Part shown: positions 4,742-20,083 of the stretch, piece after piece
Layout: each line of letters starts with the position of its first letter
Numbering within the stretch: position 1 is the stretch's first letter
Source of the DNA: Sphingobium faniae
GTDB lineage: Bacteria > Pseudomonadota > Alphaproteobacteria > Sphingomonadales > Sphingomonadaceae
Length of the DNA stretch: 64,000 bases
Reading direction: 5' to 3'
Assembly (NCBI GenBank): GCA_900100475.1
Contig: FMTU01000004.1
Span: forward strand, 193,501-257,500
The notes under the pieces: model-generated
Databases searched by the model: none
The model's input: only the letters and a program-made list of their open reading frames with translations
What the model was told of the DNA's origin: nothing
Translations under genes and position numbers: made by a program

Positions 4742-4905
4742 GCCCGCTTCTCCGTAAGGCGCTGGATGCGCTTTTGACCGATCCGGTCACAGGCGAGCCG
4801 CTGAGCGCCCTGGATCGCGCCTCCCTCGCCATGGGCTTGTATGTGGCCTTGTTCGTCATCATCGCCATGCTGGTGATGGTCCTGGGCATGGGGCCGGGCC
4901 AGTGA
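4738..4905 (+). CDS. small single-span membrane protein
   Basis: This 55-residue product has an ATGA overlap with the B-like gene. Residues 1 to 28 are polar and a single hydrophobic span follows (MGLYVALFVIIAMLVMVLGM) ending at a short GPGQ tail. The stop overlaps the GTG start of the DnaA-like gene. Such small membrane proteins are common in early phage strings. No specific family recognised. Confidence 0.5.
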   Translation: MSPLLRKALDALLTDPVTGEPLSALDRASLAMGLYVALFVIIAMLVMVLGMGPGQ

Positions 4906-5294: not shown

Positions 5295-5295
5295 C

Positions 5296-6012: not shown

Positions 6013-6161
6013 CCGCTCGTGTCCATACGGGGCGTGGCGGCCATGCCCATGCCGAATGGGAGTCGCTGCCGCTGCTGCAATCCACGCGGCCGCGCCGCCA
6101 TCCCATCGCCGTTTTCGCGATCGCTTTCCTCGTCGGCCTGTTGATCGGGATCGCACTGTGA
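6009..6161 (+). CDS. 50-residue membrane protein
   Basis: The ATG overlaps the gemA stop and the TGA overlaps the GTG of the Mor-like gene. The first 30 residues are polar and His/Arg-rich. The last 18 are hydrophobic (AVFAIAFLVGLLIGIAL), giving one C-terminal span. It is too short for a default ORF scan, but the two-sided coupling supports translation. Function unknown. Confidence 0.45.
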   Translation: MTARVHTGRGGHAHAEWESLPLLQSTRPRRHPIAVFAIAFLVGLLIGIAL

Positions 6162-6565
6162 CACCCAAAGCCGCCTCTTCCCTGCCCGGCGTCCTGGCCG
6201 AAATCGCCGACGTGGCGGGCGAGGACGCGGCGCTGGCGATCGCGAGCGCACGGGGCGGCACCCAAATCTATGTGCCTCCTGTTCCCGACGCCGATCACTG
6301 GATCAGCAAGCTGGTCGGCGTTGAAGCCGCCAGGGCAATCGCCGACCGGCTGACCTGCGGCATCGGCATCGCCCTTCGCCTCGATCTGCCGCTCGGCCCG
6401 GCCGGTCATGCGGCGCGGCAGCGCGCCCAGGTGGACGCCATGATCGCCGAAAACCGCTCCGAGCGTGACATCGCCCTGGCCACCGGCTACACGATCCGCA
6501 CCATTCGCCGCCGCCGCGCCAAGCTCGGCAAGCCGGAAGACGACCGGCAACTCACTTTCCTCTGA
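6158..6565 (+). CDS. mor: Mor-family transcription activator
   Basis: This 135-residue protein begins at a GTG overlapping the previous stop. It has the Mor/C family features: an LPGVLAEIADVAGEDAALAIASARGG segment, then IYVPPVPDADHWISKLVGVEAARAI in the dimerisation domain, and a C-terminal HTH (RSERDIALATGYTIRTIRRRRAKLG). In Mu, Mor turns on the middle promoter and C the four late promoters. Only one such gene is visible here, so it may switch on both lysis and structural genes. A dyad element lies just downstream at 6574. Confidence in the family is high. Confidence 0.88.
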   Translation: MTPKAASSLPGVLAEIADVAGEDAALAIASARGGTQIYVPPVPDADHWISKLVGVEAARAIADRLTCGIGIALRLDLPLGPAGHAARQRAQVDAMIAENRSERDIALATGYTIRTIRRRRAKLGKPEDDRQLTFL

Positions 6566-6573
6566 TCGCTCCA

Positions 6574-6602
6574 CCGGACACCCGTCCGGGGCGCTTGAGC
6601 GG
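6574..6602 (+). promoter_or_regulatory. dyad element, copy 1, upstream of lysis genes
   Basis: CCGGAC, four bases, GTCCGG forms a perfect 6-bp dyad at 6574-6589, followed by GGCGCTTGAGCGG. Nearly the same block recurs at 13505 ahead of the capsid gene. It sits in the only real gap between the Mor gene and the lysozyme. It could be an activator site or part of a late promoter; a simple terminator without a T-run is the alternative. Confidence 0.4.
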
Positions 6603-6668
6603 GCCTCCTCCGCCAGACAGGCGGCATGAGCGAGGCGCAAAAATCCCTTCATCAGGCGGACTTCCGCC

Positions 6669-7220
6669 ATGGCTGAAACGTCCGGCAGGAATGCGATCGG
6701 GCTGATCGCCGCAGGCGCGCTTGTGGCCGCGCCCGCCGCCCTTGTGGTCAATGACCAGGCCGCCAATGTGGCGACCGTCCTTACCGAGAAATGGGAGGGG
6801 ACGAAGACTGTCCCTTATCGCGATCTCGTCAAAAAATGGACCGTCTGCACCGGCGAAACGCGCGTGGAGATGCGTCCCTACACGCTTGGCGAGTGCCGGG
6901 CATTCCTCAATGCGGCCATCCGGGGCGACTATGGCCTGGGCGTCCTCAAGTGCACCCCGCAGCTTCAGCACAGCGTCTACCAGTTGGGGGCAGCGATCAG
7001 CGTCGCCTATAATATCGGCGTGGCGGGCTATTGCGGGTCCACCATGGCGCGGCAGTTCAAGGCCGGGGACTGGTTTTCCGCCTGTCAGGCTTTCGCGCTG
7101 TGGAACAAGGCGGGCGGCGTTGTCGTCACCGGCCTCGTCAACCGCCGCAATGACGAAATGCGGGCCTGCTTCACCAATCTGCCCCCCGAATACACGCTGA
7201 CCGTCAAGGTGCGCGCATGA
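6669..7220 (+). CDS. phage lysozyme (GH24) with N-terminal signal-arrest-release type segment
   Basis: This 183-residue endolysin would cleave the glycan strands of peptidoglycan. The T4-lysozyme-type catalytic triad is visible as E43 (WEG), D52 (YRD) and T58 (KKWTVCTG), with the exact 9 and 6 residue spacing. Residues 9 to 27 form a weakly hydrophobic, Ala/Gly-rich segment (AIGLIAAGALVAAPAALVV), typical of SAR endolysins that are exported by the Sec system and held in the inner membrane until depolarisation. No separate holin was identified next to it, which fits a pinholin or SAR mode; one of the small membrane ORFs upstream could serve. The spanin gene starts in an ATGA overlap. Confidence 0.87.
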   Translation: MAETSGRNAIGLIAAGALVAAPAALVVNDQAANVATVLTEKWEGTKTVPYRDLVKKWTVCTGETRVEMRPYTLGECRAFLNAAIRGDYGLGVLKCTPQLQHSVYQLGAAISVAYNIGVAGYCGSTMARQFKAGDWFSACQAFALWNKAGGVVVTGLVNRRNDEMRACFTNLPPEYTLTVKVRA

Positions 7221-7837
7221 GGTTCCTGCTGGACGCGATCATCCACGTCGGCGCGGAACTGATCGGCCTGCTGGGCGATGGCATCCGCTGGCTCCTCGCG
7301 CGGCCCTGGCGGATGGCGATCCTGATCCTCGCCCTGCTGTGCCTGTGGCTCCATGGTCAGGCGCGAAGCGCGCGCGATCTGGCGGATGCGCGCGGCGTCC
7401 AGGCCTCGTCATGGCACGCGAAATTCGTCGAGCAAAAGGCGGAGATGCTGAAATTCGTCGGAATGGTCCGTGACGCACGGGCCGAGGCCGCGCGCAAGGA
7501 CCGCGAGAATGTGGCCCGCGTCGAGCGGGAGTGGGGTCAAGTCCTTCAGGAGGTGAAAAATGATTATCAGGCCGATCTGGCCAATGCTCGCGCTGATCTT
7601 GCTGAGCGCCTGCGGGTCTCGCGCCCAGGAGCGGGTGCAGCCTGCGGTTCCGGTGGTGGCGGAGCAACGGACCTGTCCGTCCTTCCCTTCCTGTCCTCTG
7701 GACCTTTGCGGGCCGGTCACGCGGCCATCGTGGATGCAGCCGACATCGATGCCTGCACCGTAAACACGCTCCGGGTGGAGCATCTGACCGACGCCTGGGG
7801 AAGAGCGGCGGCGATCAATGTCAATGGGCAGCCATGA
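7217..7837 (+). CDS. inner-membrane spanin subunit (Rz-like)
   Basis: This 206-residue protein has an N-terminal membrane segment at about 29 to 46 (PWRMAILILALLCLWLHG) followed by a long charged helix (residues about 50 to 130), the layout of i-spanins, which fuse inner and outer membranes at the last step of lysis. It follows the lysozyme directly. The C-terminal third after residue 130 is Gly/Ala-rich and less typical. This is because the same DNA encodes the outer spanin in another frame from 7560. No sequence family was identified beyond layout and context. Confidence 0.72.
   Translation: MRFLLDAIIHVGAELIGLLGDGIRWLLARPWRMAILILALLCLWLHGQARSARDLADARGVQASSWHAKFVEQKAEMLKFVGMVRDARAEAARKDRENVARVEREWGQVLQEVKNDYQADLANARADLAERLRVSRPGAGAACGSGGGGATDLSVLPFLSSGPLRAGHAAIVDAADIDACTVNTLRVEHLTDAWGRAAAINVNGQP
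7560..7763 (+). CDS. embedded outer-membrane spanin lipoprotein (Rz1-like)
   Basis: A 67-residue ORF lies wholly inside the inner spanin gene in the +1 frame, as Rz1 lies inside Rz. It has a strong Shine-Dalgarno (CAGGAGGTGAAAA) right before the ATG. It has a signal peptide with the lipobox LLSAC (Cys18), then a short Pro-rich mature part (QPAVPVV, CPSFPSCPLDLCGP), typical of o-spanins. Position, size, lipobox and Pro content all agree. Confidence 0.78.
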   Translation: MIIRPIWPMLALILLSACGSRAQERVQPAVPVVAEQRTCPSFPSCPLDLCGPVTRPSWMQPTSMPAP

Positions 7838-8195
7838 GATGACGCCCATCCTTTCAAGTCCTGATGAAGCGGGGGAAATTGTGAGTTCAGGAATTGGTCC
7901 TGCCATATTGGCGCTGATCGCCAGTCTGGCCAACCTTCTTTGGACGTGGCACGCCAAGAGCCAGTCCGCCGCCGCTGATCGGGTGCAGAAGATCGAGACG
8001 CGTCTCGATCAGGTCGAGGACAAGCAGCTGACCGTCGAGGAGCGGCTGAAGCACCTGCCGACCAAGGACGATATCAGCCAGATCGCGCTTTCGCTGGAGC
8101 GGGTGCTGGGCACCGTCGGCCGTCAGGAAAGCGAAATCGCGAGCATGGGCCGCGTGGTCAACCGCATCGACGATTATCTGCGAGAGAAGGCATGA
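7818..8195 (+). CDS. DUF2730 (Mu gp25-like) protein
   Basis: This is up to 125 residues. A hydrophobic span near residues 25 to 42 (IGPAILALIASLANLLWTW) is followed by a charged coiled coil (AAADRVQKIETRLDQVEDK, then LKHLPTKDDI), the usual look of the DUF2730 family found ahead of the terminase genes of Mu-like phages. The start is uncertain: ATG 7818, ATG 7839 or GTG 7881 after GCGGGGGAAA. The stop overlaps the next gene by ATGA. Molecular role unknown. Confidence 0.7.
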   Translation: MSMGSHEMTPILSSPDEAGEIVSSGIGPAILALIASLANLLWTWHAKSQSAAADRVQKIETRLDQVEDKQLTVEERLKHLPTKDDISQIALSLERVLGTVGRQESEIASMGRVVNRIDDYLREKA

Positions 8196-8488
8196 GCTAC
8201 GAGGAAAGGGTAGCGCAGGACGCGCGCCTCATCATCCTGAAGGAACTGGCCTCGCAGGTGGACGGCCGGTTGAACGAGGTCGCGCTCCAGCATGTGCTGG
8301 ACGCCTTCGCGGTCAAACGCTCTCGCGAATGGGTCCGCACCCAGTTGCGCAAGCTGGCGGAACTGGAGGCGCTGCGCCTTCAGGAACTCGGCACCGTCAT
8401 GGTTGCCGAACTTCGGTCGCTGGGCCGCAATCATGTAGAGCGCCGCGAGATCATCGACGGGGTTTCGCGCCCGTCCGATCCCAGCTGA
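8192..8488 (+). CDS. Mu gp26-like small helical phage protein
   Basis: This 98-residue protein is helical throughout. It opens MSYEERVAQDARLIILKELASQ and has a central WVRTQLRKLAELEALRLQE block, matching the small conserved protein that sits between DUF2730 and the small terminase in Mu-like phages (annotated as the VpaChn25_0724 family). The pattern suggests a winged-helix-like fold, with no catalytic motif. It starts in an ATGA overlap. Function unknown. Confidence 0.65.
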   Translation: MSYEERVAQDARLIILKELASQVDGRLNEVALQHVLDAFAVKRSREWVRTQLRKLAELEALRLQELGTVMVAELRSLGRNHVERREIIDGVSRPSDPS

Positions 8489-8498
8489 GGAACGGCGG

Positions 8499-9074
8499 AT
8501 GACCGACGACACTCCCGATCGCCGGGAAGGCCGGGGACGGCTTTCGTCGATCGACCTCCTTCCCGACGAGGCGGAGCCCGATGTCATCTGGGCTCTGGAT
8601 CAGCTGCGCGACCGCAAGATGCCGCAGACGGCGATCCTGATAGAGTTCAATGCGCGCCTCGCGGATCGCGGTATTGCAGGCATCAGCAAATCATCCTGGA
8701 GCCGCTATGCGGTCCGCAAGGCCATCCAGTTCCGCAAGCTGGACGAGGTGCGCCGTCTCACCGCCGATATCGTGTCCAACCTTGGCACGGACGGTCCCGA
8801 CCAGGTGACGGTCGCGGTGGCCGAGATGATTAAGGCCTCCGCCTATGAACTGCTGGAGAAAGGCGTCAACAGCAAGGGCCTTCAGGAAGTGTCGCGCGCC
8901 GTGCAGACGGCGGTCAACGCGCAGAAGGCATCGGCCGAGGCGCGGCGCAAGCTGGAGGACGATGTCGAGCAGCGCCTGGCAAAGGCGCGTGCGGCGATCG
9001 AAAACGTTGGCAAGCAGAAGGGCGTCTCAGCCGAAACGCTGGCGGAGATCAACCGCGCCCTCGGTGCGGCCTGA
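8499..9074 (+). CDS. DUF3486 protein, Mu gp27-like small terminase
   Basis: This 191-residue protein has the DUF3486 layout. The opening GRGRLSSIDLLPDEAEPDVIWALDQLRDRKMPQTAI is followed by FNARLADRGIAGISKSSWSRYAV, a recognition-like segment, then a long helical C-terminal half with a coiled coil. In Mu-like phages this protein precedes the large terminase and is taken as the DNA-recognition subunit of packaging. The stop codon overlaps the ATG of the large subunit by one base. Confidence 0.78.
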   Translation: MTDDTPDRREGRGRLSSIDLLPDEAEPDVIWALDQLRDRKMPQTAILIEFNARLADRGIAGISKSSWSRYAVRKAIQFRKLDEVRRLTADIVSNLGTDGPDQVTVAVAEMIKASAYELLEKGVNSKGLQEVSRAVQTAVNAQKASAEARRKLEDDVEQRLAKARAAIENVGKQKGVSAETLAEINRALGAA

Positions 9075-10471
9075 TGGGCAACGCCCGCATCGTTCCCGCT
9101 AATCCAGACGCGATCTTCCTGCCCTATCAGGGACGCTGGATCGCGGATGAGGCGCGTCTCAAGCTCATGGAGAAAAGCAGGCAGATCGGCATTTCCTGGT
9201 CGACCGCCTATGCCGCCGTGGCGCGCACCGGAAAGCAGGGCGCGAGACATGACCAATGGGTGTCATCCCGCGACGACATCCAGGCGCGCCTGTTCCTGGA
9301 AGACTGCAAGCTGTTCACGGGAGTCCTGAACATCGCCGCCCGCGATCTGGGCGAGCAGCTGGTGGACCAGGACAAAAAGCAGACCGCCTATGTGCTGAGC
9401 TTCGACAGCGGGAAGCGGATCAACTCCATGAGTTCGAACGCGGACGCGCAGGCAGGCAAGCGCGGCGGACGCATCCTCGACGAGTTCGCGCTCCATCCCG
9501 ACCCGCGCAAGCTGTGGGCCATCGCCTATCCCGGTATCACCTGGGGCGGTTCGATGGAGTTGATCTCCACCCATCGCGGCAGTCATAATTTCTTCAACCA
9601 GCTGGTGCGGGAGATCAAGGAAAGCGGCAATCCCAAGGGGATCAGCCTGCACACCGTCACCCTACAGGACGCGCTGGATCAGGGCTTCCTCTACAAGTTG
9701 CAGAAGGCGCTGCCGGAAGATGATGAGCGGCAGGGGATGGACGAAGCCGCCTATTTCGATTTCGTGAAGAGCGGCTGCGCCGACGAGGAGAGTTTCCTTC
9801 AGGAATATATGTGCCAGCCCGCCGACGACGATGCGGCGTTCCTGGAATATGACCTCATCGCTTCGGCCGAATATCCGTCCGACGTGGACTGGCGGGCGAT
9901 GGAGGGCGGCACGCTCTACGCCGGGATCGATATCGGCCGGAAGAAAGACCTCACCGTCCTGTGGGTGTTCGAGAAGCTGGGCGACGTGCTTTACACCCGC
10001 CATGTCGAGGCGCTCCAGAATATGAGCAAGCCCGACCAGGAAAAGATATTGTGGCCGTGGATCGAGCGGTGCGCGCGCACCTGCATCGACTATACCGGCC
10101 TGGGCATCGGCTGGGGCGACGACGCGCAACGCCGCTTCGGCAAATATGCGATCGAACTGGTGACCTTCACGCCGAAGGTCAAGGAAGCCCTGGCTTATCC
10201 GGTTCGGGGCAAGATGGAGGATCGGCGGCTTCGTATCCCCCAGGACAGCAAGATCAGGGCTGATCTCCGGGCTGTCACCAAGCAAACGACAGCGGCGGGC
10301 AATATTCGCTTCACGGCCGAGCGGACGCCTGATGGCCACTCCGACCGCTTCTGGTCTCTGGCGCTCGCGATCCACGCGGCCGCAGGCACCGATACCGCGC
10401 AATGGCGACCGCTTTCCGCCGTCGAGGCGCATGGCGGCGATTCCTCCGACGAGAACTGGATACCGGCATGA
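9074..10471 (+). CDS. large terminase subunit (Mu gp28 type)
   Basis: This 465-residue protein packages phage DNA into proheads. The N-terminal ATPase has the adenine-binding start FLPYQGRWI and a Walker A-like EKSRQIGIS. A motif RGGRILDEFA follows, with DE as Walker B and catalytic Glu, and then an STHRG coupling segment. The C-terminal nuclease domain starts at YAGIDIGRKKDLTV with its metal-binding Asp. The length is somewhat under 500 residues, usual for Mu gp28-like terminases. The portal gene follows in an ATGA overlap. Confidence 0.9.
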   Translation: MGNARIVPANPDAIFLPYQGRWIADEARLKLMEKSRQIGISWSTAYAAVARTGKQGARHDQWVSSRDDIQARLFLEDCKLFTGVLNIAARDLGEQLVDQDKKQTAYVLSFDSGKRINSMSSNADAQAGKRGGRILDEFALHPDPRKLWAIAYPGITWGGSMELISTHRGSHNFFNQLVREIKESGNPKGISLHTVTLQDALDQGFLYKLQKALPEDDERQGMDEAAYFDFVKSGCADEESFLQEYMCQPADDDAAFLEYDLIASAEYPSDVDWRAMEGGTLYAGIDIGRKKDLTVLWVFEKLGDVLYTRHVEALQNMSKPDQEKILWPWIERCARTCIDYTGLGIGWGDDAQRRFGKYAIELVTFTPKVKEALAYPVRGKMEDRRLRIPQDSKIRADLRAVTKQTTAAGNIRFTAERTPDGHSDRFWSLALAIHAAAGTDTAQWRPLSAVEAHGGDSSDENWIPA

Positions 10472-12570
10472 ACGCTTCGACCCTGACGCGGCCCAAGGCT
10501 GGCTGGCTCAGCAAGGCCCTGACGGCCATGCGGCATTCCGCCCGACCGCCATTCTTCATGAGCCTGCTCAAGCGAACCCGTTTCGATTACCGGAAAGAGA
10601 CCGGCGATTGTCTGGACGCTTCGGTGGTGACGGCGCCCGTGCTCTGGATCGGCCGCGCGCTCCCCGAAGCGAACCTTGCCGTCACCCGCCACGCCCGCAA
10701 TGGCGAGGTCGAGGAGGTGCACGATCATCCGATGCTGGCCCTGATCCAGAACCCCAATCCCTTCTATGGCGACATCGCCCTTTGGATGGCGACGCTGGTC
10801 AGTTTCCTGATTTCCGGCAATGCCTATTGGATTATCGTCCGCAACGGCGCGGGTCGGCCTGCCGAACTCTGGTATACGCCGCACTGGATGATCGAGCCCA
10901 AATGGCCGCAGGACGGCGGGACCTTCATCTCCCACTATCGCTACAGTCCAGGCGGCGGCGCGGAGCCGATGCGGATCGAGCCCAGGGACGTGGTGCATTT
11001 CCGCCATGGGATCGATCCGCGCAATATCCGCATGGGGCTGTCGCCGCTCGACGGCGTGATCCGCGAAATCTTCATCGATCTGGAAAGCTCCAATTTCGTG
11101 GCCTCGCTGCTGCGGAACATGGGCGTCCCCGGCGTCGTCATCAGTCCCAAGGGCGGCGCTATGCCAGCGCCGGAGGATGTCGAAGCCACAAAGACCTGGT
11201 TCAAACAGGCTTTCGGCGGAGACAATCGCGGCGGGCCGTTGGTGATGGGCGCGCCCACGGACGTGCAGCCCTATGGCTTCAACCCGCAGCAACTCAACAT
11301 GAGCGAGGGCCGCGACGTGGCGGAAGAGCGCGTCTGCGCGTGCCTGGGCATCCCTGCCGCTGTCGTGGGCTTCGGCGCGGGGCTTCAGCAAACGAAGGTC
11401 GGCGCGACCATGGAGGAACTGCGCAAGCTCGCCTGGAACAATGGCGTCCTGCCCTTTGCGCGGATGCTGGCCGACGAACTGCAACGGTCGCTGCTGGGCG
11501 AGTTCGGGCCATCGACCGGGGCCGGGACCGTGAAGATCGGCTGGGACACCAGCGAGGTTCTCGCGCTTCAGGAGGATGAGGACAAGAAGGTCGACCGCTG
11601 GGGCAAGATGCTCGCGAGCGGCGCGATCACGGTTTATGAATATCGCATCGGCATTGGCGAAGCGGCAGACGACAGCCACAAATTCTACCTGCGCCAGATT
11701 TCGGTGCTGGAAGTCCCCGCCGATGGCAAGCCGCCGCCGCAGCGCGCGCTGCCCGATCCGAAGACGAAGGCGGAACGCCGCGCCAGCGAAGCCGCCTATG
11801 CGCGCGGTCATGCCTTCGCGCTGACCGTGCAGCGAAGCGGCGACCGGCTTCAAAGGGCTTTCGAAGCACCTTTGGAGATGCTTTTCGGGCAGCTTGGCGC
11901 GGCGGCCGGTGAAGCCGCGCTGCCGATGCTGGAAAGCGATCCCGCCCTTCCCAAGGGGCTCGAAGGCGGCCGGGGCGAAAAGGCCGACGAGCAGCTGATC
12001 GACGCGATCCTGGAGAAGCTCGGCATAGACGCGTGGAACGGTCGCCTGCGCGGCTCCTATGAAGGGCATTATCTCGAAGTCGCCAAGTCGATCGCGGAAG
12101 CGGGCGAGCGCGCTGGCCTGGGCGCATCGCTGCCCGATGTGGTGGCGCGCTCGATCGTCGCGGCCGGGGGACGCCGCGCGGGCCTTATCGATCTGGAAAA
12201 CCAGAGTCGGGCCGCACTGTTCTCTGCCCTGGCTGAAGGACGGGCTGCGGGCGAAGGCGCGGCCCAGCTGGCGGCGCGCATCGTCAGCGAGGTCGAGGGC
12301 GGGCCTTGGCGCAGCGCGGAGATGCGGGCGCGGGTGATTGCGCGGACCGAAACCAAATATGCCCAGAATATCTCGACAATCGAACGCGGCCGCGCGGCGG
12401 GCGTGGGCAGCTTCATCGTCTATGACGGCCGTCTGGGGCCGGGCCGGTCGCTGCTGACCCATATGGCCCGCAATGGCTCCATCGCGACGACCGAGGAGGC
12501 GCTCGCCATGGCGGAAGCCGAACATCCCAACGGGACGCTGAGCTTCGCGCCCAATTTCGAGGAGGACTGA
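10468..12570 (+). CDS. HK97-family portal protein with C-terminal MuF-like domain
   Basis: This is a 700-residue protein from the ATG at 10468, chosen for the ATGA overlap with the terminase. Residues 1 to about 400 are an HK97-type portal: HPMLALIQNPNP, SFLISGNAYW, ELWYTPHWM and VVHFRHG, then SPLDGVIREI. The portal dodecamer forms the DNA channel at one head vertex. The remaining 300 residues are helical and end in RVIARTETKYAQNISTIERGRAAGV, which resembles the SPP1 gp7/Mu F minor head domain. Typical HK97 portals are about 400 residues, so this is a natural fusion of portal and minor head protein. The portal call is firm; the MuF call is likely. Confidence 0.85.
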   Translation: MNASTLTRPKAGWLSKALTAMRHSARPPFFMSLLKRTRFDYRKETGDCLDASVVTAPVLWIGRALPEANLAVTRHARNGEVEEVHDHPMLALIQNPNPFYGDIALWMATLVSFLISGNAYWIIVRNGAGRPAELWYTPHWMIEPKWPQDGGTFISHYRYSPGGGAEPMRIEPRDVVHFRHGIDPRNIRMGLSPLDGVIREIFIDLESSNFVASLLRNMGVPGVVISPKGGAMPAPEDVEATKTWFKQAFGGDNRGGPLVMGAPTDVQPYGFNPQQLNMSEGRDVAEERVCACLGIPAAVVGFGAGLQQTKVGATMEELRKLAWNNGVLPFARMLADELQRSLLGEFGPSTGAGTVKIGWDTSEVLALQEDEDKKVDRWGKMLASGAITVYEYRIGIGEAADDSHKFYLRQISVLEVPADGKPPPQRALPDPKTKAERRASEAAYARGHAFALTVQRSGDRLQRAFEAPLEMLFGQLGAAAGEAALPMLESDPALPKGLEGGRGEKADEQLIDAILEKLGIDAWNGRLRGSYEGHYLEVAKSIAEAGERAGLGASLPDVVARSIVAAGGRRAGLIDLENQSRAALFSALAEGRAAGEGAAQLAARIVSEVEGGPWRSAEMRARVIARTETKYAQNISTIERGRAAGVGSFIVYDGRLGPGRSLLTHMARNGSIATTEEALAMAEAEHPNGTLSFAPNFEED

Positions 12571-12572
12571 CC

Positions 12573-13280
12573 ATGATCGCCAAGGCGATGACCATCGAGA
12601 AGATGGACGAAACGGGAACCGGGCTCGCCCGCATCGCGCAGCTGGCCGCCGTCGATAGCGACGGGGACACATATGCGCCCGGCGCTTTCTCCTGGAAGGA
12701 AGGTGGCGGCCAATGGGTGCAGATGATCCCGGCCCATGATCGCCGCGCCATGCCGTTCGGCAAGGCATGGCTCTACGAAAAGGACGGGTGGGCCGTCGCC
12801 GACCTGAACCTCAATCTCGACACGCAGGCCGGAAAGGACTGGCACGCGGCCCTGAAGTTCGACCTCGCCAAGGGACGGCCGGTGCAGGAATGGTCCTACG
12901 GCTTCAATATTCTGGATGCGGGCTTCGAGCAGCGCGAGGGTTCGCGCGTCCGGGTCCTCAAGCGTCTCGACGTCGATGAAATCTCTCCCGTGCTTCGCGG
13001 CGCTGGCGTGGGCACCGGAACGCTCGCCATCAAATCGGCCCAGCTGAAGGACGCGGCGTTCGCGCCGCTGATCTCCCAGTTGGGCGACCTTGCCGATGCG
13101 CTGGGAGACGATCCCTCCTGCCTGTCGGTGACGGGGATCAAACAGCTTGGCGAAATCCATGTCGCGATCGGCAAGGCGCTCTCCCGCCCGGCCGAGATCG
13201 AGGCGAGGGAACAGGCTGCTACCGGCGCTGCGCTGGCGGGCTATCTCAAGGGTGTCGCGCGCCGTCATCTGAAGGTCTGA
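12573..13280 (+). CDS. HK97-type prohead protease
   Basis: This 235-residue protein matches the HK97 prohead protease (S78/U35) family. It has a conserved DSDGDTYAPGAF opening, a catalytic-region His in MIPAHD, a Ser in WSYGFNILDA, and the family signature LDVDEISPVLRGAG. It matures the head by trimming the capsid protein's N-terminal scaffold domain. The gene precedes the capsid gene as usual. Beyond residue 160 a helical tail of unknown role follows. Confidence 0.85.
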   Translation: MIAKAMTIEKMDETGTGLARIAQLAAVDSDGDTYAPGAFSWKEGGGQWVQMIPAHDRRAMPFGKAWLYEKDGWAVADLNLNLDTQAGKDWHAALKFDLAKGRPVQEWSYGFNILDAGFEQREGSRVRVLKRLDVDEISPVLRGAGVGTGTLAIKSAQLKDAAFAPLISQLGDLADALGDDPSCLSVTGIKQLGEIHVAIGKALSRPAEIEAREQAATGAALAGYLKGVARRHLKV

Positions 13281-13590
13281 GCGAAGATGTCGCGGGAGGC
13301 CCTCACAAGCCGCGTGTGGGCCTTCTGGCTGTCATGTGCTTGGGGATCGTCCCCTGCGCCTCTTAGCCCCTCTTAAATGGCTCTGACGGCCCCTTCGGCA
13401 TCCCGTTGCCCTTCGCTGTCCGGGGTAGCGCCGTTGTCATTGCCCTTTCCCCCCTGCATCGGGTAACACTGCATCTCTCCCTACCGCCGCCGCCCTGATT
13501 GCCACGGACGTTCGTCCGGGGCGCGTGAACGGTGCCGCTGCTTCCATATGGGCCGGATTTCAACGACCGGTCATCGACGGGAGCAAGTAT
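13281..13590. other. 310-base non-coding gap before the capsid gene
   Basis: No convincing ORF is present. The left part holds an imperfect hairpin at 13295-13323 (AGGCCC paired with GGGCCT, with ACA paired with TGT after a two-base bulge), a likely terminator or processing site after the protease gene. Pyrimidine-rich sequence follows. The second copy of the dyad element lies at 13505. A ribosome site CGGGAG lies ahead of 13591. The gap is large for this packed genome, which suggests that the capsid gene has its own promoter. Confidence 0.5.
13505..13532 (+). promoter_or_regulatory. dyad element, copy 2, upstream of capsid gene
   Basis: CGGACG, TT, CGTCCG is a perfect dyad at 13505-13518, followed by GGGCGCGTGAACGG. 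Aligned with 6575, 24 of about 28 positions agree, including the shared core GTCCGGGGCGC and the TGA-N-CGG end. Both copies sit about 70 to 90 bases ahead of the first gene of a functional block. Confidence 0.42.
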
Positions 13591-14907
13591 ATGGCGGTAG
13601 CGGATTTGAGCCTGAAGGAAGCGCGCGAGAAGCTCGCCGCCAAACAGGACGAACTGGGCAAGGTTTTCGCGGAGGCGAAGACGGATGATGGCCAGTATGA
13701 TTTCAAGCGGGTGACGTGCCTGGGCGCGGAGGTGAAGGGTTCGATCGCGGTGGCCGAGAAGGTCAACCAGATGAACGCCGAGCTTAACGAGCTTGCGGAA
13801 CATGCCGAAAAGCTGGAGGGCGCCGAGCGCGCGGCGGGCGAACATGCCGACCGCGAGAAGGCGCGCCGCAATTTCCCGCTGCCAGGCGGCGGCAAGGGCA
13901 ACTATCCCTCGACCGAGCAGCGCCTCAAGGCGCTGGGCGAAATGGCCGTCGAGACCAAGGCATTCCAGGACTGGGTGAAGAACGGCTGCCCGGACGGCAT
14001 CACGATCAACATCGACAATCTCGCTGCGACCGACATGCTGGCGCTGGCGGCTGGTTTCGAGACGATCGGCAGCAAGGCGCTGATGGCCACCACGGCCGGT
14101 TTCGCTCCGGAAAGCGTCCGCCAGCCCGGTTTCGTGGAAGGGCTGACCCGCCCGATCCAGTTGCTGGACATCATCCCGACCTTCCAGACCGATCAGGCGA
14201 CGGTCAAATATATGGAGGAAACGACCCGCACCCACGCCGCCGCCGAAGTGGCGGAGGGCGGAGCCTATGCGGAAAGCACCTTCGTCTTCACCGAGAAGGA
14301 AAGCCCGGTCCGCAAGATCGGCGACAGCCTGCCCGTCACGGACGAGCAGCTGGAAGATGTTTCGATGATGCAGGGCTACATCAACACGCGCCTGCCGTTC
14401 GGCGTGCGCCAGCGGCTTGACGGCCAAATCATCGTCGGGAACGGCACCGCGCCGAACCTGCGCGGCCTCAAGAATGTCGTGGGCATCCAGACGCAGGCCA
14501 AGGCCGCCGATCCGGTGCCGGACGCTTTCTACAAGGCGATGACCAAGGTCCGCCTGGGCGGCCGGTCCGTTCCCACGCACCATGTCCTGCATCCGACCGA
14601 CTGGCAGGGCGTCCGCCTGCTCCGCACCACGGACGGCGTCTACATCTACGGATCGCCGAGCGAGGCCGGACCGGAGCGTCTTTGGGGCCTGCCGGTGGTG
14701 CAGCAGGACGCCGACCTGGCGGGCACGGGCTATACCGGATCGTTCCGGCCGGACACGGTCAGCCTGCACGAGCGCCGAGGCGTGGACGTGCAGGTCGGCT
14801 ATGTCGGGACCCAGTTCACCGAAGGCAAGCGGACGGTCCGCGCCGACATTCGGGTGGCGCTGGTGTGGTGGCGTCCTCCGGCCTTCTGCTCGGTCACCGG
14901 CCTTTAA
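13591..14907 (+). CDS. HK97-fold major capsid protein
   Basis: This is a 438-residue protein from the ATG at 13591, chosen over the upstream in-frame codon at 13525 because of the CGGGAG ribosome site. Residues 1 to about 110 are a charged coiled-coil delta/scaffold domain that the adjacent protease would remove. The rest is the HK97 fold: TTAGFAPESVRQPGF, RPIQLLDIIPTFQTDQ, then the E-loop region with YMEET and EVAEGGAYAEST, and the late LHPTDWQGVRLLRTTDGVY block. The stop is followed by a strong hairpin at 14926. Confidence 0.92.
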   Translation: MAVADLSLKEAREKLAAKQDELGKVFAEAKTDDGQYDFKRVTCLGAEVKGSIAVAEKVNQMNAELNELAEHAEKLEGAERAAGEHADREKARRNFPLPGGGKGNYPSTEQRLKALGEMAVETKAFQDWVKNGCPDGITINIDNLAATDMLALAAGFETIGSKALMATTAGFAPESVRQPGFVEGLTRPIQLLDIIPTFQTDQATVKYMEETTRTHAAAEVAEGGAYAESTFVFTEKESPVRKIGDSLPVTDEQLEDVSMMQGYINTRLPFGVRQRLDGQIIVGNGTAPNLRGLKNVVGIQTQAKAADPVPDAFYKAMTKVRLGGRSVPTHHVLHPTDWQGVRLLRTTDGVYIYGSPSEAGPERLWGLPVVQQDADLAGTGYTGSFRPDTVSLHERRGVDVQVGYVGTQFTEGKRTVRADIRVALVWWRPPAFCSVTGL

Positions 14908-14925
14908 TCTCCGACGGGGCGGAGA

Positions 14926-14964
14926 TGCCGGGCGGACGCGACCCTCTCCTGCGTCCGCCCGGCA
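14926..14964 (+). terminator. perfect 14-bp stem hairpin after capsid gene
   Basis: TGCCGGGCGGACGC pairs perfectly with GCGTCCGCCCGGCA around an 11-base loop. No T-run follows, so it may act as an mRNA stability element or partial terminator rather than a full intrinsic terminator. A smaller ATCTCC/GGAGAT stem lies just upstream. The placement suits high expression of capsid mRNA relative to downstream genes. Confidence 0.7.
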
Positions 14965-14994
14965 CAAACCCCAGACATCAAGAAAGGGCGAACC

Positions 14995-15258
14995 GTGCCG
15001 ACCATTTCCGGTTTTTCAAGCCCGGTGGGCTGCGCGCTGATCCGTGGCGGGGCTGTCGGGGAGCATGTGGTCCCCGGCAATCTCCAGCCCGGCGATACGC
15101 TGCTGTCCGTCGAACATATCACCGACGGCGATCCGCCGACCCGCGTCGATCGCACCGCCGAGTTCACGATCTCCGCCACGAAGGGCGGCGTGATCGAGAA
15201 CACCACCACAAACACCACGGGCGGCTTCCTGCACGTCCTCTGGTCCAAGTCCGAATAG
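14995..15258 (+). CDS. small structural-region protein, possible head decoration or spike
   Basis: This 87-residue protein starts at GTG after GAAAGGGCGAA. It is rich in Thr, Gly and Val with predicted beta strands and no helix (LQPGDTLLSVEHI, then AEFTISATKGGVIENTTTNTTGG). Position right after the capsid gene is where decoration or stabilisation proteins are usually found. No family recognised; a structural role is inferred. Confidence 0.5.
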   Translation: MPTISGFSSPVGCALIRGGAVGEHVVPGNLQPGDTLLSVEHITDGDPPTRVDRTAEFTISATKGGVIENTTTNTTGGFLHVLWSKSE

Positions 15259-15262
15259 GAGC

Positions 15263-16069
15263 ATGACGATGTTCGCGAAGCAAAGGCTCTATCTCACCGC
15301 CGATCGTTCCGCCCTGGTCGCGGAGGGCAATGCGGCGGCCGCCTTCCTCTATGCCGCGCCGGGAGACGAAATCCCCGAAAGCGCGGCGAGGCGGTTCGGG
15401 CTGGTCGACGGCGAACTGTCCGGCGACATGGCCCCGGCCAACACGCTTGTGCAGGCGATCCTGCGCGCGGCGGCCATGGGGGTGATCGGCCCAATCGAGA
15501 TCGCGGGCCTGACCTTCACCAACGAGTTCCGCCTGTTCGCCAAGGGCGACATCGACGATGAGCAGCTGCTCGCGATGGTGACCGCCCCGCAACTGGTGGT
15601 CGAGGCGCTCCAGTTTGTCGATGACGAAGCCAAGGACTGGGGGCCAATCCCCGGCCTCGCTGACTTCATCCCCAAGCTGGCGTTGATCGTGGCCACGGCC
15701 CGGTCGATCGGCGCGGATATGCCGCGTCTGGGCGACGAGCTTTCGGACGAACTCTCTCTGGCGGTCAATGCCGCCGCGCTTGCCGCCGATGCGGCGAATG
15801 CTTCTCCTCCGCCTCCCGGTGAAACAGACCGGTCGGGCGATGATGGCGAGAAGGAGGACTGGAAAGCCGGTGACATGCTGGCGCCTGATCCTGCACCTGA
15901 CAGCGCCGCGCCTGCTGCGCCAGCCACTCCCGCTCCGGCACAGGAAACCGCTTCGGAGAAATCCGGGGATGCTCCGCAGGAGAACAAGGAGAAGGCTCCG
16001 GCCGAGGACAAGGAACAGAAGCGCGGCCACGACAAGGGCAGGAGCGCGAAGGGCGCGGCGAAGGATTGA
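15263..16069 (+). CDS. hypothetical virion-region protein with low-complexity tail
   Basis: This 268-residue protein has three parts. The N-terminal 50 residues (QRLYLTADRSALVAEGNAAAAFLYAAPGDEIPE) resemble small proteins found by head-tail connector genes. The middle is helical and acidic. The last 95 residues are Pro/Ala/Glu/Lys-rich and disordered (PAAPATPAPAQ, then KEKAPAEDKEQKRGHDKGR). The tail may be a flexible linker or a DNA or protein contact region. The exact function is unknown. Confidence 0.5.
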   Translation: MTMFAKQRLYLTADRSALVAEGNAAAAFLYAAPGDEIPESAARRFGLVDGELSGDMAPANTLVQAILRAAAMGVIGPIEIAGLTFTNEFRLFAKGDIDDEQLLAMVTAPQLVVEALQFVDDEAKDWGPIPGLADFIPKLALIVATARSIGADMPRLGDELSDELSLAVNAAALAADAANASPPPPGETDRSGDDGEKEDWKAGDMLAPDPAPDSAAPAAPATPAPAQETASEKSGDAPQENKEKAPAEDKEQKRGHDKGRSAKGAAKD

Positions 16070-16072
16070 GCC

Positions 16073-16639
16073 GTGGCGCTGCTGGACCGGGTCAAACTGC
16101 GCACGGGATCGGACCTCCCCGATAGCGAACTCCAGGCGATGATCGACGCGATCACCGCCGATATGGATGCGCGCTTCGGACCGGCCGGGCCGATCAGCGT
16201 CGAACTGGGCGATCCCACCGATCCCTGTTCGCGCGCCCTGCGCACGCTTCGCCTGGTCCGGCCGCTGGACGATTCGCAGCCGGTGGAGATCGTCGAGATC
16301 GACCCGTCCAACAGCGGGCTTCCCGACAATGAAATCCAGCTGGCCGCGAGCGACTATGCCGTGCTGCACGGCGGGCGGACATTGCAGCGCCTGACGGGCG
16401 GTCCGAACGGGCGCAGCTTCTGGGCTCCGATGGTGCGCGCCACCTACACCCCGGCCGGTGAGCAGGCCGCGCGCGACGAAGCGGTCATCAAGCTGATGCA
16501 ACTCGACCTTTCCTATCGCGGCGGCCTCAAGAGCGAGCGGGCCGGAGACTATCAATACACGCTGAGCGGCGACGTGGCGGCCGAGCGGGAAGCGATCTTC
16601 GGCGCGCTCGCGCAGCGGCGCGGGACGGTGATGGCATGA
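16073..16639 (+). CDS. head-tail connector protein (gp6/neck-like)
   Basis: This 188-residue protein with a GTG start opens with LLDRVKLRTGSDLPDSELQAMIDAITADMDARFGP, the typical helical start of connector proteins that dock under the portal. It then has a beta-rich insertion and a C-terminal helical part that ends in a YTLSGD segment. Location between capsid and head-completion genes agrees. The family call rests on the N-terminal helix and context. Confidence 0.6.
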   Translation: MALLDRVKLRTGSDLPDSELQAMIDAITADMDARFGPAGPISVELGDPTDPCSRALRTLRLVRPLDDSQPVEIVEIDPSNSGLPDNEIQLAASDYAVLHGGRTLQRLTGGPNGRSFWAPMVRATYTPAGEQAARDEAVIKLMQLDLSYRGGLKSERAGDYQYTLSGDVAAEREAIFGALAQRRGTVMA

Positions 16640-16836
16640 GCGGGGACGGCATGGAAGAATTGCTCGTAAAGACGGGCGAGGCCCTGACCGCTGTCAAGGC
16701 GATGCTGGACGCGCAGGGCGCGCAGCCCGGCACTGACCAGCGTTCGCTCGCCATCGCGAAAACGCAGTTCGAAACCGCCTTCCTTTGGGCCGCGAGCGCC
16801 GTCCAGGGACCGGGCATCTTCGAGGCCGTGCCATGA
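16636..16836 (+). CDS. possible Acb2/Tad1-type cyclic-nucleotide sponge protein
   Basis: This 66-residue protein starts in an ATGA overlap. After a helix at residues 5 to 28, the segment DQRSLAIAKTQFETAFLWAASAV (34 to 56) matches the hairpin motif of Acb2/Tad1-domain proteins: an Arg followed by L-A-[IL], then [KR]-T, a Glu two residues on, and a Met/Leu-Trp-Ala run. Known members bind cyclic di- and trinucleotides or gcADPR and block CBASS or Thoeris defence. They often sit among phage structural genes, as here. Some short helical structural proteins could look alike, so this is a motif-level call. Confidence 0.55.
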   Translation: MSGDGMEELLVKTGEALTAVKAMLDAQGAQPGTDQRSLAIAKTQFETAFLWAASAVQGPGIFEAVP

Positions 16837-17003
16837 TGATGGCGATCAAGCGTCTTTGGGGCGTCAGGCATCTGCGCTTTTTCTTCCTGCGCTGGCAGGT
16901 GTTCCGCCATGCGCGCGCATGGGGCCGGATGGGCATTGGCCTGGGCTATCCCAATCCTTCCGACATCGAGCAGCTGGGCATGATCTGGCGGGGTGAGCGA
17001 TGA
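16833..17003 (+). CDS. small hypothetical phage protein
   Basis: This 56-residue ORF begins with ATGATGATG overlapping the stop of the sponge-like gene and ends in an overlap with the next gene. It is Arg- and aromatic-rich (RHLRFFFLRWQVFRHARAWGRMGIGLGYPNPSDI). The hydrophobic face is broken by many Arg residues, so a membrane span is unlikely. It is probably coupled to the gene before it and may work with it. No family known. Confidence 0.5.
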   Translation: MMMAIKRLWGVRHLRFFFLRWQVFRHARAWGRMGIGLGYPNPSDIEQLGMIWRGER

Positions 17004-17473
17004 CCAGTCACACCCTCGCCACGATCATGTCCGTTTATACGGGATCGGACGGCGACCAGACAAAGGCGCTCTACGACGCGCTGGACGCCTTCGGCCCGGC
17101 CGGGGCGGTCGCCATCAACCTGTTTCGCGCCTGCAAGGCCAGCGAGCGGGCGAAGGCTTATCGCGGCGGGATTCGCGGCAAGGGTTCGTTCCGGCGCATG
17201 GCCTATGACCGCAAGGGCTGGGCGATCGACAATCTCACCAAGGCGCTGACGGCGCATGGCGAGGCGATCGGCGTCCGCTGGGGTTGGGGCGAGGATCGCG
17301 CCACGGCTGGCTATGCCCATGTCCTTTATGTGGACACGCCTGCCGGGCAGGTCAGCTTCCATTCGCCGTGCCGGGGTGAAGGCCCGGACTATCCTGACGA
17401 ATGGGACGGGATTCGCGGGCAGGCTGCCCAGCGCATCTGCCGGTTCGTCGCGCAAGTGCTGGGGGCGGCATGA
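17000..17473 (+). CDS. hypothetical phage protein in head-tail block
   Basis: This 157-residue protein, in ATGA overlap on both sides, has a helical N-terminus (DQTKALYDALDAFGPAGAVAINLFRACKASERAKAY). A basic centre follows with GIRGKGSFRRMAYDRKGWAIDNL, then a beta-rich part (YAHVLYVDTPAGQVSFHSP). The last helix contains WDGIRGQAAQRICRFV. The look is of a soluble globular protein, not a known neck protein. Function not recognised. Confidence 0.55.
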   Translation: MTSHTLATIMSVYTGSDGDQTKALYDALDAFGPAGAVAINLFRACKASERAKAYRGGIRGKGSFRRMAYDRKGWAIDNLTKALTAHGEAIGVRWGWGEDRATAGYAHVLYVDTPAGQVSFHSPCRGEGPDYPDEWDGIRGQAAQRICRFVAQVLGAA

Positions 17474-17745
17474 TGGCGGGGCGGACTGGATGGCGGAAAC
17501 TCCCTCTCGACCTTGCCCAGGCCGGGGAGATGCTCCGCGACTATGCCTTGCCCTGCGAGGGCAATCCGGTCGAGGCGGCCGTGTTCCGCGATACTCGTGG
17601 CCGTCATCGTCGCATCAGCGCGCGCTATGCCGATGGCTGGTCGCTCCAGATCAATTTCGCGCTGGATGGGAAGGTCAGCAGCTATCAGCTTTCCTGCTCG
17701 CTTCGCGGCACCGTCACATCCTCGCGCGCGGCGGTCCAGAAATGA
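17470..17745 (+). CDS. small hypothetical phage protein
   Basis: This 91-residue protein starts with ATGATG in an ATGA overlap. It begins with basic residues (GRTGWRKLPLDLAQAGEMLRDY) and then has a run of beta strands (RRISARYADGWSLQINFALDGKVSSYQLSCSL). The overlap with the head-tail joining gene downstream again suggests coupled translation. No family recognised. Confidence 0.5.
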   Translation: MMAGRTGWRKLPLDLAQAGEMLRDYALPCEGNPVEAAVFRDTRGRHRRISARYADGWSLQINFALDGKVSSYQLSCSLRGTVTSSRAAVQK

Positions 17746-18086
17746 TCGCGGGTCGCCTCACCATGCGCGCGGCGGTCGAGCGGAACCAGGCCACGGGAAC
17801 GGATGCCTGGAACAACCGCGTCGGGCCTGATTTCCAGCCGGTCGGAACCCTGCCCTGCTTCATCTGGTCCAACTCTTCCCGCGAACTGATCGATGGGCAG
17901 AAAACCGCGCTGATCGAGGATGTGCGGGGCCTGTTCGCGCTGGGCGCGGATCTCGCGGAGAATGACGAGGTCGCATCGGTGACCGATCGCGCGGGCAATA
18001 TCCTCATTCCCGGCCGCCTGAAGGTCGAAGGGCCAGTGCAGTTCAAGCACACGCACCTGGAAGCCGCGCTGCGGAGGATCGGGTGA
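17742..18086 (+). CDS. head-tail joining (head completion) protein
   Basis: This 114-residue protein has the features of head-tail adaptor proteins that seal the connector: an N-terminal RLTMRAAVERNQATGTDAWNN, a W-rich centre (PCFIWSNSSRELIDGQKT), and an LGADLAENDEVASVTDRAGNILI block that mirrors the D-R-I-x-D-x-x-G pattern of the SPP1 gp16/HK97 gp7 group. Its size (110 to 120 residues) and its position before the HK97 gp10-like gene fit. Confidence 0.65.
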   Translation: MIAGRLTMRAAVERNQATGTDAWNNRVGPDFQPVGTLPCFIWSNSSRELIDGQKTALIEDVRGLFALGADLAENDEVASVTDRAGNILIPGRLKVEGPVQFKHTHLEAALRRIG

Positions 18087-18535
18087 TGGCGGAAAAGTCG
18101 CTCGAATGGAACGGCAAGGCGGTGACCGAGCGGATGCGGCAGGCGCAGATCGCCGGGATCAACCGCACCATGGGCGCGAGCGTCCAGCACGCGCGGGACA
18201 ACCACACATGGCAGAACCGCACCGGCGTGCTGGAAGGCGGCATCGACATCGTGGACTATGCGGCCGAGACGGCGGAAGGAGCCAAGGGCGTCTGGGGCGT
18301 CCATGATGTGCGCTATGCGCTGATCCATGAACTGGGCGGCACCATCGAGCCGGTCAACGCCAAGGCTCTGGCGATTCCCCAGCCCGATGGCGGCGTGCGC
18401 CTGGTCAAGAAGGTGACGATCCGGGCGCAGCCCTATCTGCGCCCCGCGGCCGACGCAAAATATCCTTCGCTGGCCGACAATATCCGCAAGGCTTACGAGA
18501 AATCCGCACCCAAGGGCGGAGGGACCGGTGGCTGA
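18083..18535 (+). CDS. HK97 gp10-like tail completion protein
   Basis: This 150-residue protein starts at GTG 18083 or ATG 18086. It has the HK97 gp10 family signature: a helical N-terminus, then WQNRTGVLEGGI, a segment in which a beta sheet surrounds VRYALIHELGGTI, and RAQPYLRPAADAK near the end. Members sit between the head and the tail terminator and take part in tail attachment. Neighbours on both sides agree. Confidence 0.75.
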   Translation: MMAEKSLEWNGKAVTERMRQAQIAGINRTMGASVQHARDNHTWQNRTGVLEGGIDIVDYAAETAEGAKGVWGVHDVRYALIHELGGTIEPVNAKALAIPQPDGGVRLVKKVTIRAQPYLRPAADAKYPSLADNIRKAYEKSAPKGGGTGG

Positions 18536-18947
18536 TCCGGTCGGCGCTCTGGTCGCGATCCTGATGGATGACGCCGCGACCGCCAGCCGCGTGGCGGCCC
18601 GCGTGTTCGGTGGCGAGCTTCCGGCAACGGAGGCGGCATCGATGCCGCGCCGCGCGTTGGTCATCCGGCCTTCAGGCGGCGTTTCGATGACCGGCGAAAG
18701 CTATGTGGAGCACGATACGCAACGGGTCGATCTGTTCGCCTATGGCGCGACTCCCGCTGAAGCTGGCGACCTGATGGGCATTGCGGCCCTTGCGCTGCGG
18801 CGGGTCAAGCGTCGGGTCGCGGCCGGGACACTGGTTCACTGGGTCCAGAGCGCGGGCGGTTTCTCTTCTGGACGCGAGCCGGAAACGGAATGGCCCCGCG
18901 TCTTTCAGTCCTTCCAGCTGCTCTACGCCATGGAGAGCGTCGCATGA
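18528..18947 (+). CDS. tail terminator-like protein
   Basis: This 139-residue protein with a GTG start overlaps the previous gene by 8 bases. The alpha-beta-beta pattern (DPVGALVAILMDDAATASRVAARVFGGELP, then RALVIRPSGG and HDTQRVDLFAYG) matches tail terminator proteins of the lambda gpU/DUF3168 type, which cap the tail tube. It lies between the gp10-like gene and the tube gene, the expected place. The sequence match is weak. Confidence 0.6.
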   Translation: MADPVGALVAILMDDAATASRVAARVFGGELPATEAASMPRRALVIRPSGGVSMTGESYVEHDTQRVDLFAYGATPAEAGDLMGIAALALRRVKRRVAAGTLVHWVQSAGGFSSGREPETEWPRVFQSFQLLYAMESVA

Positions 18948-19004
18948 GCGCGCCTCTCAGAGCCTTTTTTCACCTGCCCAAGAGACCTTTGAAAGGACGT
19001 TCAA

Positions 19005-19604
19005 ATGCAGCCTTATGAAATCATCGGAGCGCCCCTGACGCTCTGGCTCGCGCCTTCCGGCACGGCCTTCCCTCTCATCGGCGCGGCACCTGCGGGAACG
19101 TGGGTCAAGGTCGGCACCAACGGCACCCGCAACTATTCGGGCGACGGCGTGACGGTGGCGCATGGACGGACCTTCCAGAAGGCGCGGCCTGCCGGGGCCA
19201 CCGGCCCGATCAAGGCGTTCCTCGACGAAGAAGAGCTGATGATCCGCCTGACGCTCTGGGACCTCACGCTGGAGCAGTATCAGCATGTGCTTTCGAGCAA
19301 CACGCTGTCCACGACGGTAGCGGGCGAAGGAACGGCCGGGTTCAAGAAGATCGGCCTCAGCCACGGCATGACGGTCAAGGAATTTTCCCTGCTGGCGCGC
19401 GGGGAGTCGCCCTATGACGAAAAGATGGTGGCGCAGTATGAAGTGCCGCGCTGCTATCAGTCGGGCACCCCGGAAATCGCCTATCGCAAGGCGCAGCCGG
19501 CCGGGCTCGCGCTGGAGTTCACGGCGCTGGAGGATTTGGCCGCCGCGAACGAAGCCGAACGCTTCGGCCGCCTCGTCGTCCAGCACCAGGCTCCGTTGCC
19601 CTGA
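19005..19604 (+). CDS. major tail tube protein
   Basis: This 199-residue protein has a ribosome site GAAAGGACG. It is beta-rich: GAPLTLWLAPSGTAFPLIG, WVKVGTNGTRNYSGDGVTV, then an acidic hairpin with ETEELMIRLTLW-like EEELMIRLTLWDLTLEQYQ, and late EVPRCYQSGTPEIAY. Size and position (after the terminator, before the chaperone overlap pair) are those of the tube protein of a flexible, non-contractile tail. Confidence 0.72.
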   Translation: MQPYEIIGAPLTLWLAPSGTAFPLIGAAPAGTWVKVGTNGTRNYSGDGVTVAHGRTFQKARPAGATGPIKAFLDEEELMIRLTLWDLTLEQYQHVLSSNTLSTTVAGEGTAGFKKIGLSHGMTVKEFSLLARGESPYDEKMVAQYEVPRCYQSGTPEIAYRKAQPAGLALEFTALEDLAAANEAERFGRLVVQHQAPLP

Positions 19605-19612
19605 GCCGCGCC

Positions 19613-20083
19613 ATGACCGAGACCCTCCTCGATCTCGACACGCTGATCGTGCGCCCCGCGATCGCGATCGACGGCTCCCGCTATGAGATATTGAGCCCGG
19701 ATGAACTGTCCGTGCTCGACAGCCATCGTTTCGGCGTCTGGGGACGCCGGATCGAAGCCCTGTCGCAGGGCGACAATGCTGACGACGCGGACGAACTGGA
19801 AGAGCTTTACGAAAAGGTTTCCCGCGCCGTCCTCGTGGACGTTCCCGAAGCGGTATTCGCAAGGCTGACCGGTTCGCAGCGGATCGCGATCGTCGATGTT
19901 TTTACCGGGCTCCTGCTGCGCAGCAAGCTGGGCGTGGCGGGAGCGATGGCGACAGCGATGGGGACGGCGACGGAGGGCCTGTGGACTGGGGGAGGATCAT
20001 TCCCCGGCTCCAACGCTTCTACGGCGGATCGCCGGGCTGGTGGCTTCTGGAAGCGCCTGCGGGGCTGGTTCGCGCATATATGA
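19613..20083 (+). CDS. tail assembly chaperone, first reading frame (gpG-like)
   Basis: This 156-residue protein has a helical N-terminal domain to about residue 110 (DLDTLIVRPAIAIDGSRYEILSPDELS, EELYEKVSRAVLVDVPEAVFARLTGSQRIAIVDVF). After about residue 120 the frame turns into Gly/Ser/Arg-rich sequence that looks like a shadow of the next frame. This pattern is that of a gpG protein whose -1 partner continues the real coding. It follows the tube gene and precedes the tape measure, as in lambda-type tails. Confidence 0.65.
   Translation: MTETLLDLDTLIVRPAIAIDGSRYEILSPDELSVLDSHRFGVWGRRIEALSQGDNADDADELEELYEKVSRAVLVDVPEAVFARLTGSQRIAIVDVFTGLLLRSKLGVAGAMATAMGTATEGLWTGGGSFPGSNASTADRRAGGFWKRLRGWFAHI

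Follow-up and report, generated by a model that had tools for sequence, protein, structure and literature searches.

A 66-residue relative of the Acb2/Tad1 hairpin in a variable slot of a Sphingobium prophage: a candidate cyclic-nucleotide sponge

Here, we analyze a gene for a 66-amino-acid protein in the head-tail block of a prophage of Sphingobium faniae, located on contig FMTU01000004.1 (positions 193,501 to 257,500; this whole stretch of 64,000 nucleotides is called the window below). By its sequence, the protein is a novel variant akin to the hairpin family that includes the phage sponges Acb2 and Tad1 (Thoeris anti-defence 1); it is itself neither an Acb2 nor a Tad1. We tentatively propose, with somewhat less than even confidence, that this hairpin-only relative self-assembles and sequesters cyclic trinucleotides of the cA3 type, which the type III cyclic oligonucleotide-based antiphage signaling system (CBASS) of its own host would make.

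Kinship with the Acb2/Tad1 hairpin

The open reading frame (ORF) lies on the plus strand where the initial annotation had placed it. It carries the R-x-L-A-I-A-K-T-x-F-E-x-A-F-L-W-A pattern described there, in the form R36-S-L-A-I-A-K-T-Q-F-E-T-A-F-L-W-A52. This motif is the conserved core in an alignment of nine relatives, with 9 of the 14 invariant columns falling within T43-A52. ATGA junctions join the ORF to the gene upstream and to a 56-residue ORF downstream, whose Arg-rich composition and overlap were both seen as annotated. Eight pairwise comparisons of hairpin genes (Nei-Gojobori) gave ratios of nonsynonymous to synonymous substitution rates (dN/dS) of 0.07-0.40, which are rough values, with several dS above 1.3. 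It is a genuine gene, and purifying selection acts on it.

Against Pfam, the protein matched PF24729 (Acb2_Tad1_hairpin) at E 8.2e-6 over profile positions 23-56 of 58, and this was its sole match at E <= 1. The same family was matched at E <= 1 by 9/9 members of the subfamily alignment (best 2e-6), which was assembled from a protein database and IMG/VR contigs. Compared profile to profile with hhalign, the subfamily aligned with a profile of 31 canonical Acb2-like proteins (97.5%, E 5.5e-12, 44 columns). A search of the Protein Data Bank (PDB) with the canonical profile recovered solved Acb2 (8h2j, 8ixz) and T4 Vs.4 (7uq2); the profiles that reach Acb2 include canonical rows and are thus no independent proof of kinship. 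One further relative (L105, positions 189-509) bridges both groups, as it combines a GYR arm like that of Acb2 with an AKTQFETAF core (PF24729 E 2.4e-15); a terminase gene follows about 1.2 kb downstream of it.

The AlphaFold2 model of the protein is a two-helix hairpin (helices 3-28 and 35-54; predicted local distance difference test score, pLDDT, 88.3), with the reservation that 12 of the 22 rows of the input alignment are canonical Acb2-like sequences and may lead the model. The loop is as long as that in the model of a canonical relative. In the VIA list of seven chains, Tad1 ranked sixth, under four designed helical bundles and one ribosome chain.

An alignment of 22 sequences from both groups has no variation at D34 and T43 and almost none at R36. 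Its register was set from the shared Asp (D34 of the 66-residue protein, D46 in canonical members), counted by hand, with a six-residue loop in both models. We take R36 to be R67 of Pseudomonas Acb2, and Y11 and K26 of Acb2 to be dinucleotide contacts. Canonical Acb2-like proteins start as a rule with MDNQHKxIKGYR and keep N23, K26, and R66 in at least 90% of the 31 sequences. The first 12 canonical residues have no counterpart in the 66-residue protein, and the positions of N23, K26, and R66 are occupied by V11, G14, and S54. T43 aligns with T68 of T4 Acb2, the numbering offset of one being deduced from the alignment register. In the excerpted text of PMC12657230, the T4 Acb2 substitution T68M reduced binding and Y8A, within the N-terminal arm, was binding-deficient. 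From the alignment, D34, R36, and T43 are the putative ligand-facing residues of the 66-residue protein.

The same comparison bears on the alternative that the hairpin is decayed or repurposed and lacks sponge activity, for instance as a protein-binding element. Several nearly invariant Acb2-like residues are unmatched and the subfamily has a signature of its own, FETAFLWA, whereas D34, R36, and T43 are retained in common with Acb2. The low dN/dS values speak against decay, although they are no argument against repurposing. We regard this alternative as rather unlikely.

Several results weigh against the proposed kinship and function, and some further searches returned little. The Pfam match, which the initial annotation had foreseen as a check, is present, yet its 26.4 bits lie 0.6 bit below the curated cut-off of PF24729 (27 bits). 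Scored singly, one of the nine subfamily members exceeded this cut-off (L009, 28.3 bits) and eight fell below; among seven further relatives only L104 (29 bits) and L105 (56.9 bits) exceeded it, so that 3 of all 16 passed and 13 failed. One relative (L102) had no Pfam match at E <= 0.1 and another (L103) reached only E 0.051. Solved Acb2 was not found with a profile of just the nine relatives, and phmmer with the single 66-residue sequence returned only chance matches from the PDB. Neither PADLOC nor NCBIfam had a hit for the protein, PHROG matched it solely to families without an assigned function (phrog_717 best, at E 1.1e-4), and the protein database search yielded one relative besides the protein itself. 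Y11, N23, K26, and R66, which hardly vary among Acb2-like proteins, are unmatched. The structure comparison with Acb2 that the initial annotation had in mind yielded the predicted single-chain hairpin and no significant Foldseek match: none at E <= 0.001 in PDB or BFVD, and Acb2 was not among the matches at E <= 10, whereas the model of a canonical relative, built alike, found 8h2j at E 7e-5. At the genome level, the HORMA marker of type III CBASS (PF18138) was found in only 1 of 5 other hairpin-bearing genomes checked.

The hairpin occupies a variable slot

The location in a head-tail block, as initially annotated, is borne out by the capsid gene upstream and neck and tail genes downstream, with the gene in an accessory rather than a core structural position. 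The gene order is capsid, two genes, connector-like, hairpin, 56-residue, 157-residue, 90-residue, closure-like, neck, tail terminator, and tail tube (Table 1). The prophage is estimated to cover window positions 1-30814: a 36168-base IMG/VR contig (L004) holds the same locus, and by coordinate arithmetic the predicted prophage would start before the window and end near 30814.

Table 1 Features of the head-tail block around the hairpin gene (window positions)
Feature	Position	Strand	Basis or remark
Major capsid protein, places slot in head-tail block	13525..14907	+	PF05065 E 8.9e-31
Connector-like upstream flank, weak label DUF3199/YqbG, below cut-offs	16073..16639	+	PF11436 E 0.014, NF050002 E 0.0076; common to 21 loci
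Hairpin-only Acb2/Tad1 relative, 66 aa, candidate cyclic-nucleotide sponge	16636..16836	+	PF24729 match, profile-profile comparison, AlphaFold2 model
Variable slot between connector-like and closure-like genes, four small genes here	16637..17744	+	Slot lengths in 21 connector loci
Arg-rich slot gene, 56 aa, not an obligate partner	16833..17003	+	Hairpin-free in L144-L147; absent beside hairpin in G037
Slot gene, 157 aa, function unknown	17000..17473	+	Relatives in viral contigs; no Pfam match above cut-off
Slot gene, 90 aa, function unknown	17473..17745	+	Weak relatives in L008 and L150
Closure-like downstream flank, weak label Phage_HCP, below cut-off	17742..18086	+	E 0.24; conserved in 21 loci

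The slot that the connector-like and closure-like genes flank holds the hairpin in the phage of the window and in L005, L006, L008, L102, L103, L109, and G037. The connector of the window supplied six peptide patterns, and a search with these gathered 21 loci, of which two carry the hairpin (the phage of the window, L110, and that of L005, L123) and 19 do not, by tblastn and an unfiltered six-frame profile search; given this sampling, 19/21 is no population frequency, and the two positives are 2 of the 8 known hairpin loci of the slot type. Three pairs look alike by position (L125/L127, L114/L116, L118/L120), which lowers the number of independent connector loci. Slot length over the 21 loci ranges from a 1-nt overlap to 2138 nt, and in four of them (L111, L125, L127, L130) the flanks abut, with <=8 nt between them. 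In one locus (L126), the canonical profile gave a weak match (E 0.015), which is located ahead of the connector and not in the slot. In other phages the slot is occupied by unrelated genes; for example, four hairpin-free loci share a gene for 222 amino acids there (L114 4785-5453, L116 4396-5064, L118 4833-5501, and L120 4833-5501).

In other phages the hairpin stands elsewhere in the late operon. In L009, L010, L100, and L108 the hairpin is followed immediately by a portal gene (phrog_113, E 1.4e-136 or better; presumably the Mu-type portal), with a terminase gene ahead of the hairpin in L100 and L108, the two loci searched for that gene; in L107 its neighbors are a neck gene on one side and the tape measure on the other. 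In Leptolyngbya phage Lsp-JY19 (L016 4872-5096), a full-length Acb2-like gene (PF24729 E 3.9e-19) is found two genes past the major capsid gene; canonical members thus too sit in a head-tail block.

The residence of the gene in a head-tail block, and that of relatives in late operons of other phages, would also suit a small protein of the virion or its assembly at the head-tail joint, with only a helical hairpin in common with Acb2. We consider such a protein improbable, because the hairpin is missing from 19 of the 21 loci with the same connector, the flanks adjoin directly in four, and other phages carry it before the portal gene or in the gap between neck and tape measure; a match to a structural family was found in neither PHROG nor Pfam. 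The distribution of the hairpin follows the pattern of mobile cargo and not that of a core virion part.

The other slot genes assort independently. The initial annotation had read the ATGA overlap as coupling of the hairpin to the 56-residue gene, and this did not hold. Four relatives of the 56-residue gene were found besides that of the phage in the window; the stretches read around them contain no hairpin, and one of the four (L144) is in the same slot. Conversely, in G037 the hairpin is followed directly by the 157-residue gene, without the 56-residue gene. ATGA-type overlaps also occur at other junctions of the operon, and a dedicated two-gene module with the Arg-rich protein appears very improbable. 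The 157-residue gene has seven relatives in viral contigs besides that of the phage in the window, and no hairpin was seen in what was read of these loci. One (L149) is in the same slot; in the other six the neighboring core genes are missing from the stretch read. The 90-residue gene has relatives in L008 (27%, E 0.001), where it lies upstream of the hairpin, and in L150 (39%, E 3e-11).

A proposed sponge and the CBASS of the host

A preference for trinucleotides is proposed for the 66-residue protein because the hairpin is the domain common to Acb2 and Tad1, while the dinucleotide pocket of Acb2 is built with its N-terminal segment, which the 66-residue protein lacks. By this argument, a protein pared down to the hairpin would retain the site for trinucleotides. 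Briefly, the protein would be expressed as part of the late (capsid-tail) transcript upon induction or infection and would form an oligomer, whose three-fold interface, with the conserved D-x-R-(x)6-T segment, would hold the cyclic trinucleotide ring. The Cap17-like effector of the host would then be silenced by a signal that is held, not cut. The model is analogous to Acb2 and Tad1, which according to the excerpts of PMC12043709 bind trinucleotides at trimer interfaces of a hexamer.

The genome that harbors the prophage (4.84 Mb, 93 contigs) encodes a type III CBASS operon on contig 78 (positions 5823-11148 of L133, which is contig 78 from 4000 to 20000). Its cyclase (cGAS/DncV-like nucleotidyltransferase, CD-NTase; PADLOC Cyclase 5.8e-128) carries AGSF and is closest in the PDB to CdnC of E. 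coli MS115-1 (E 4.2e-34), a maker of cA3 according to the excerpts of PMC13424991. By analogy, the CdnC-like cyclase of the host would make cA3. The operon further comprises HORMA (3.2e-79), TRIP13 (6.2e-126), and exonuclease (1.9e-90) genes and a Cap17-like effector (PF18178 4.6e-91; PADLOC 1.6e-216, there labelled TIR). A helix-turn-helix (HTH)/IrrE-type regulator flanks it on the opposite strand, and a Fic/DUF4172 gene follows the operon at L133 11428-12555.

The resident CBASS may be coincidental. Among 397 genomes sampled from the family, 6 had PF18138 and 2 had the hairpin; in the genus, they occurred in 6/94 and 2/94 genomes, respectively. G156 and G489 are one genome by their identical coordinates. 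An association of CBASS with the hairpin was considered and set aside: PF18138 occurrence in 1/5 hairpin-bearing versus 5/395 hairpin-free genomes of the family sample (own genome excluded; Fisher p 0.07) compares groups from different samples and is not counted as evidence.

Alternatively, the sponge could bind another ligand, be it cyclic dinucleotides as for Acb2, gcADPR (glycocyclic ADP-ribose) as for Tad1 against Thoeris, or the signal of a decoy system such as Panoptes. We hold this to be fairly unlikely. Binding of both di- and trinucleotides by Acb2 and Tad1 (excerpts of PMC12043709) is compatible with it, whereas loss of the N-terminal segment argues against the dinucleotide option. 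The own genome gave no match for Thoeris SLOG (PF18185) or Cas10 (PF22335), the former being uninformative as PF18185 was silent in every control as well. On Rhizobium phage RHph_X2_26 (L017 4363-5168), a gene whose annotation reads TIR domain-containing protein is directly followed by one for an Acb2-like protein that has a GY arm; the two are possibly a signal-sponge pair on a phage.

It is more doubtful still, and a proposal only, that the 66-residue hairpin represents an armless, trinucleotide-selective sponge that serves as swappable cargo of sphingomonad prophage late operons and is aimed at cA3-type (type III) CBASS, including that of its own host. The slot between two head-tail genes and the late-operon gaps of other phages are places to seek counter-defence genes, and the pairing of a candidate sponge with a type III CBASS in one genome could be used as a test target.

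Comparison with known sponges and CBASS

The host operon resembles the CBASS of E. coli upec-117, which according to the excerpted text of PMC9122588 consists of CdnC, Cap7 (HORMA), Cap6 (TRIP13), Cap17, Cap18 (exonuclease), CapW, and Cap19. Counterparts of CdnC, HORMA, TRIP13, Cap17, and the exonuclease are present in the host.

The Acb2/Tad1-like identity given in the initial annotation stands for the hairpin and not for a full Acb2 or Tad1, of which the N-terminal arm and the beta domain, respectively, are absent. With Acb2 (Pseudomonas phage p26, PDB 8h2j/8ixz; T4 Vs.4, 7uq2) the 66-residue protein shares the second-helix D-x-R-x-L-A-x-x-[KR]-T, a predicted helical hairpin with equal loop length, and the small size of a phage gene. 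Unlike Acb2, it lacks the N-terminal IKGYR arm, where the binding tyrosine is located (Y8 as numbered in T4), and its 66 residues compare with 89-93 in the solved chains. Tad1 (PDB 7uaw) differs by an N-terminal beta-sheet domain that is missing here; the model contains no strand. No description of a hairpin-only minimal form was found in the titles and abstract openings searched, with most subscription journals outside that search. A natural form consisting of the hairpin only would reveal, in 66 residues, which signal is bound by which portion of the fold, given that both Acb2 and Tad1 accept di- as well as trinucleotides. The sponges Tad2 and Acb4 have other folds with beta-strands, as far as the excerpts of PMC12043709 and PMC11722364 describe them, and no sequence match between them and the 66-residue protein arose in the analysis. 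Both are small phage proteins and sequester nucleotide signals; by analogy the 66-residue protein would work alike.
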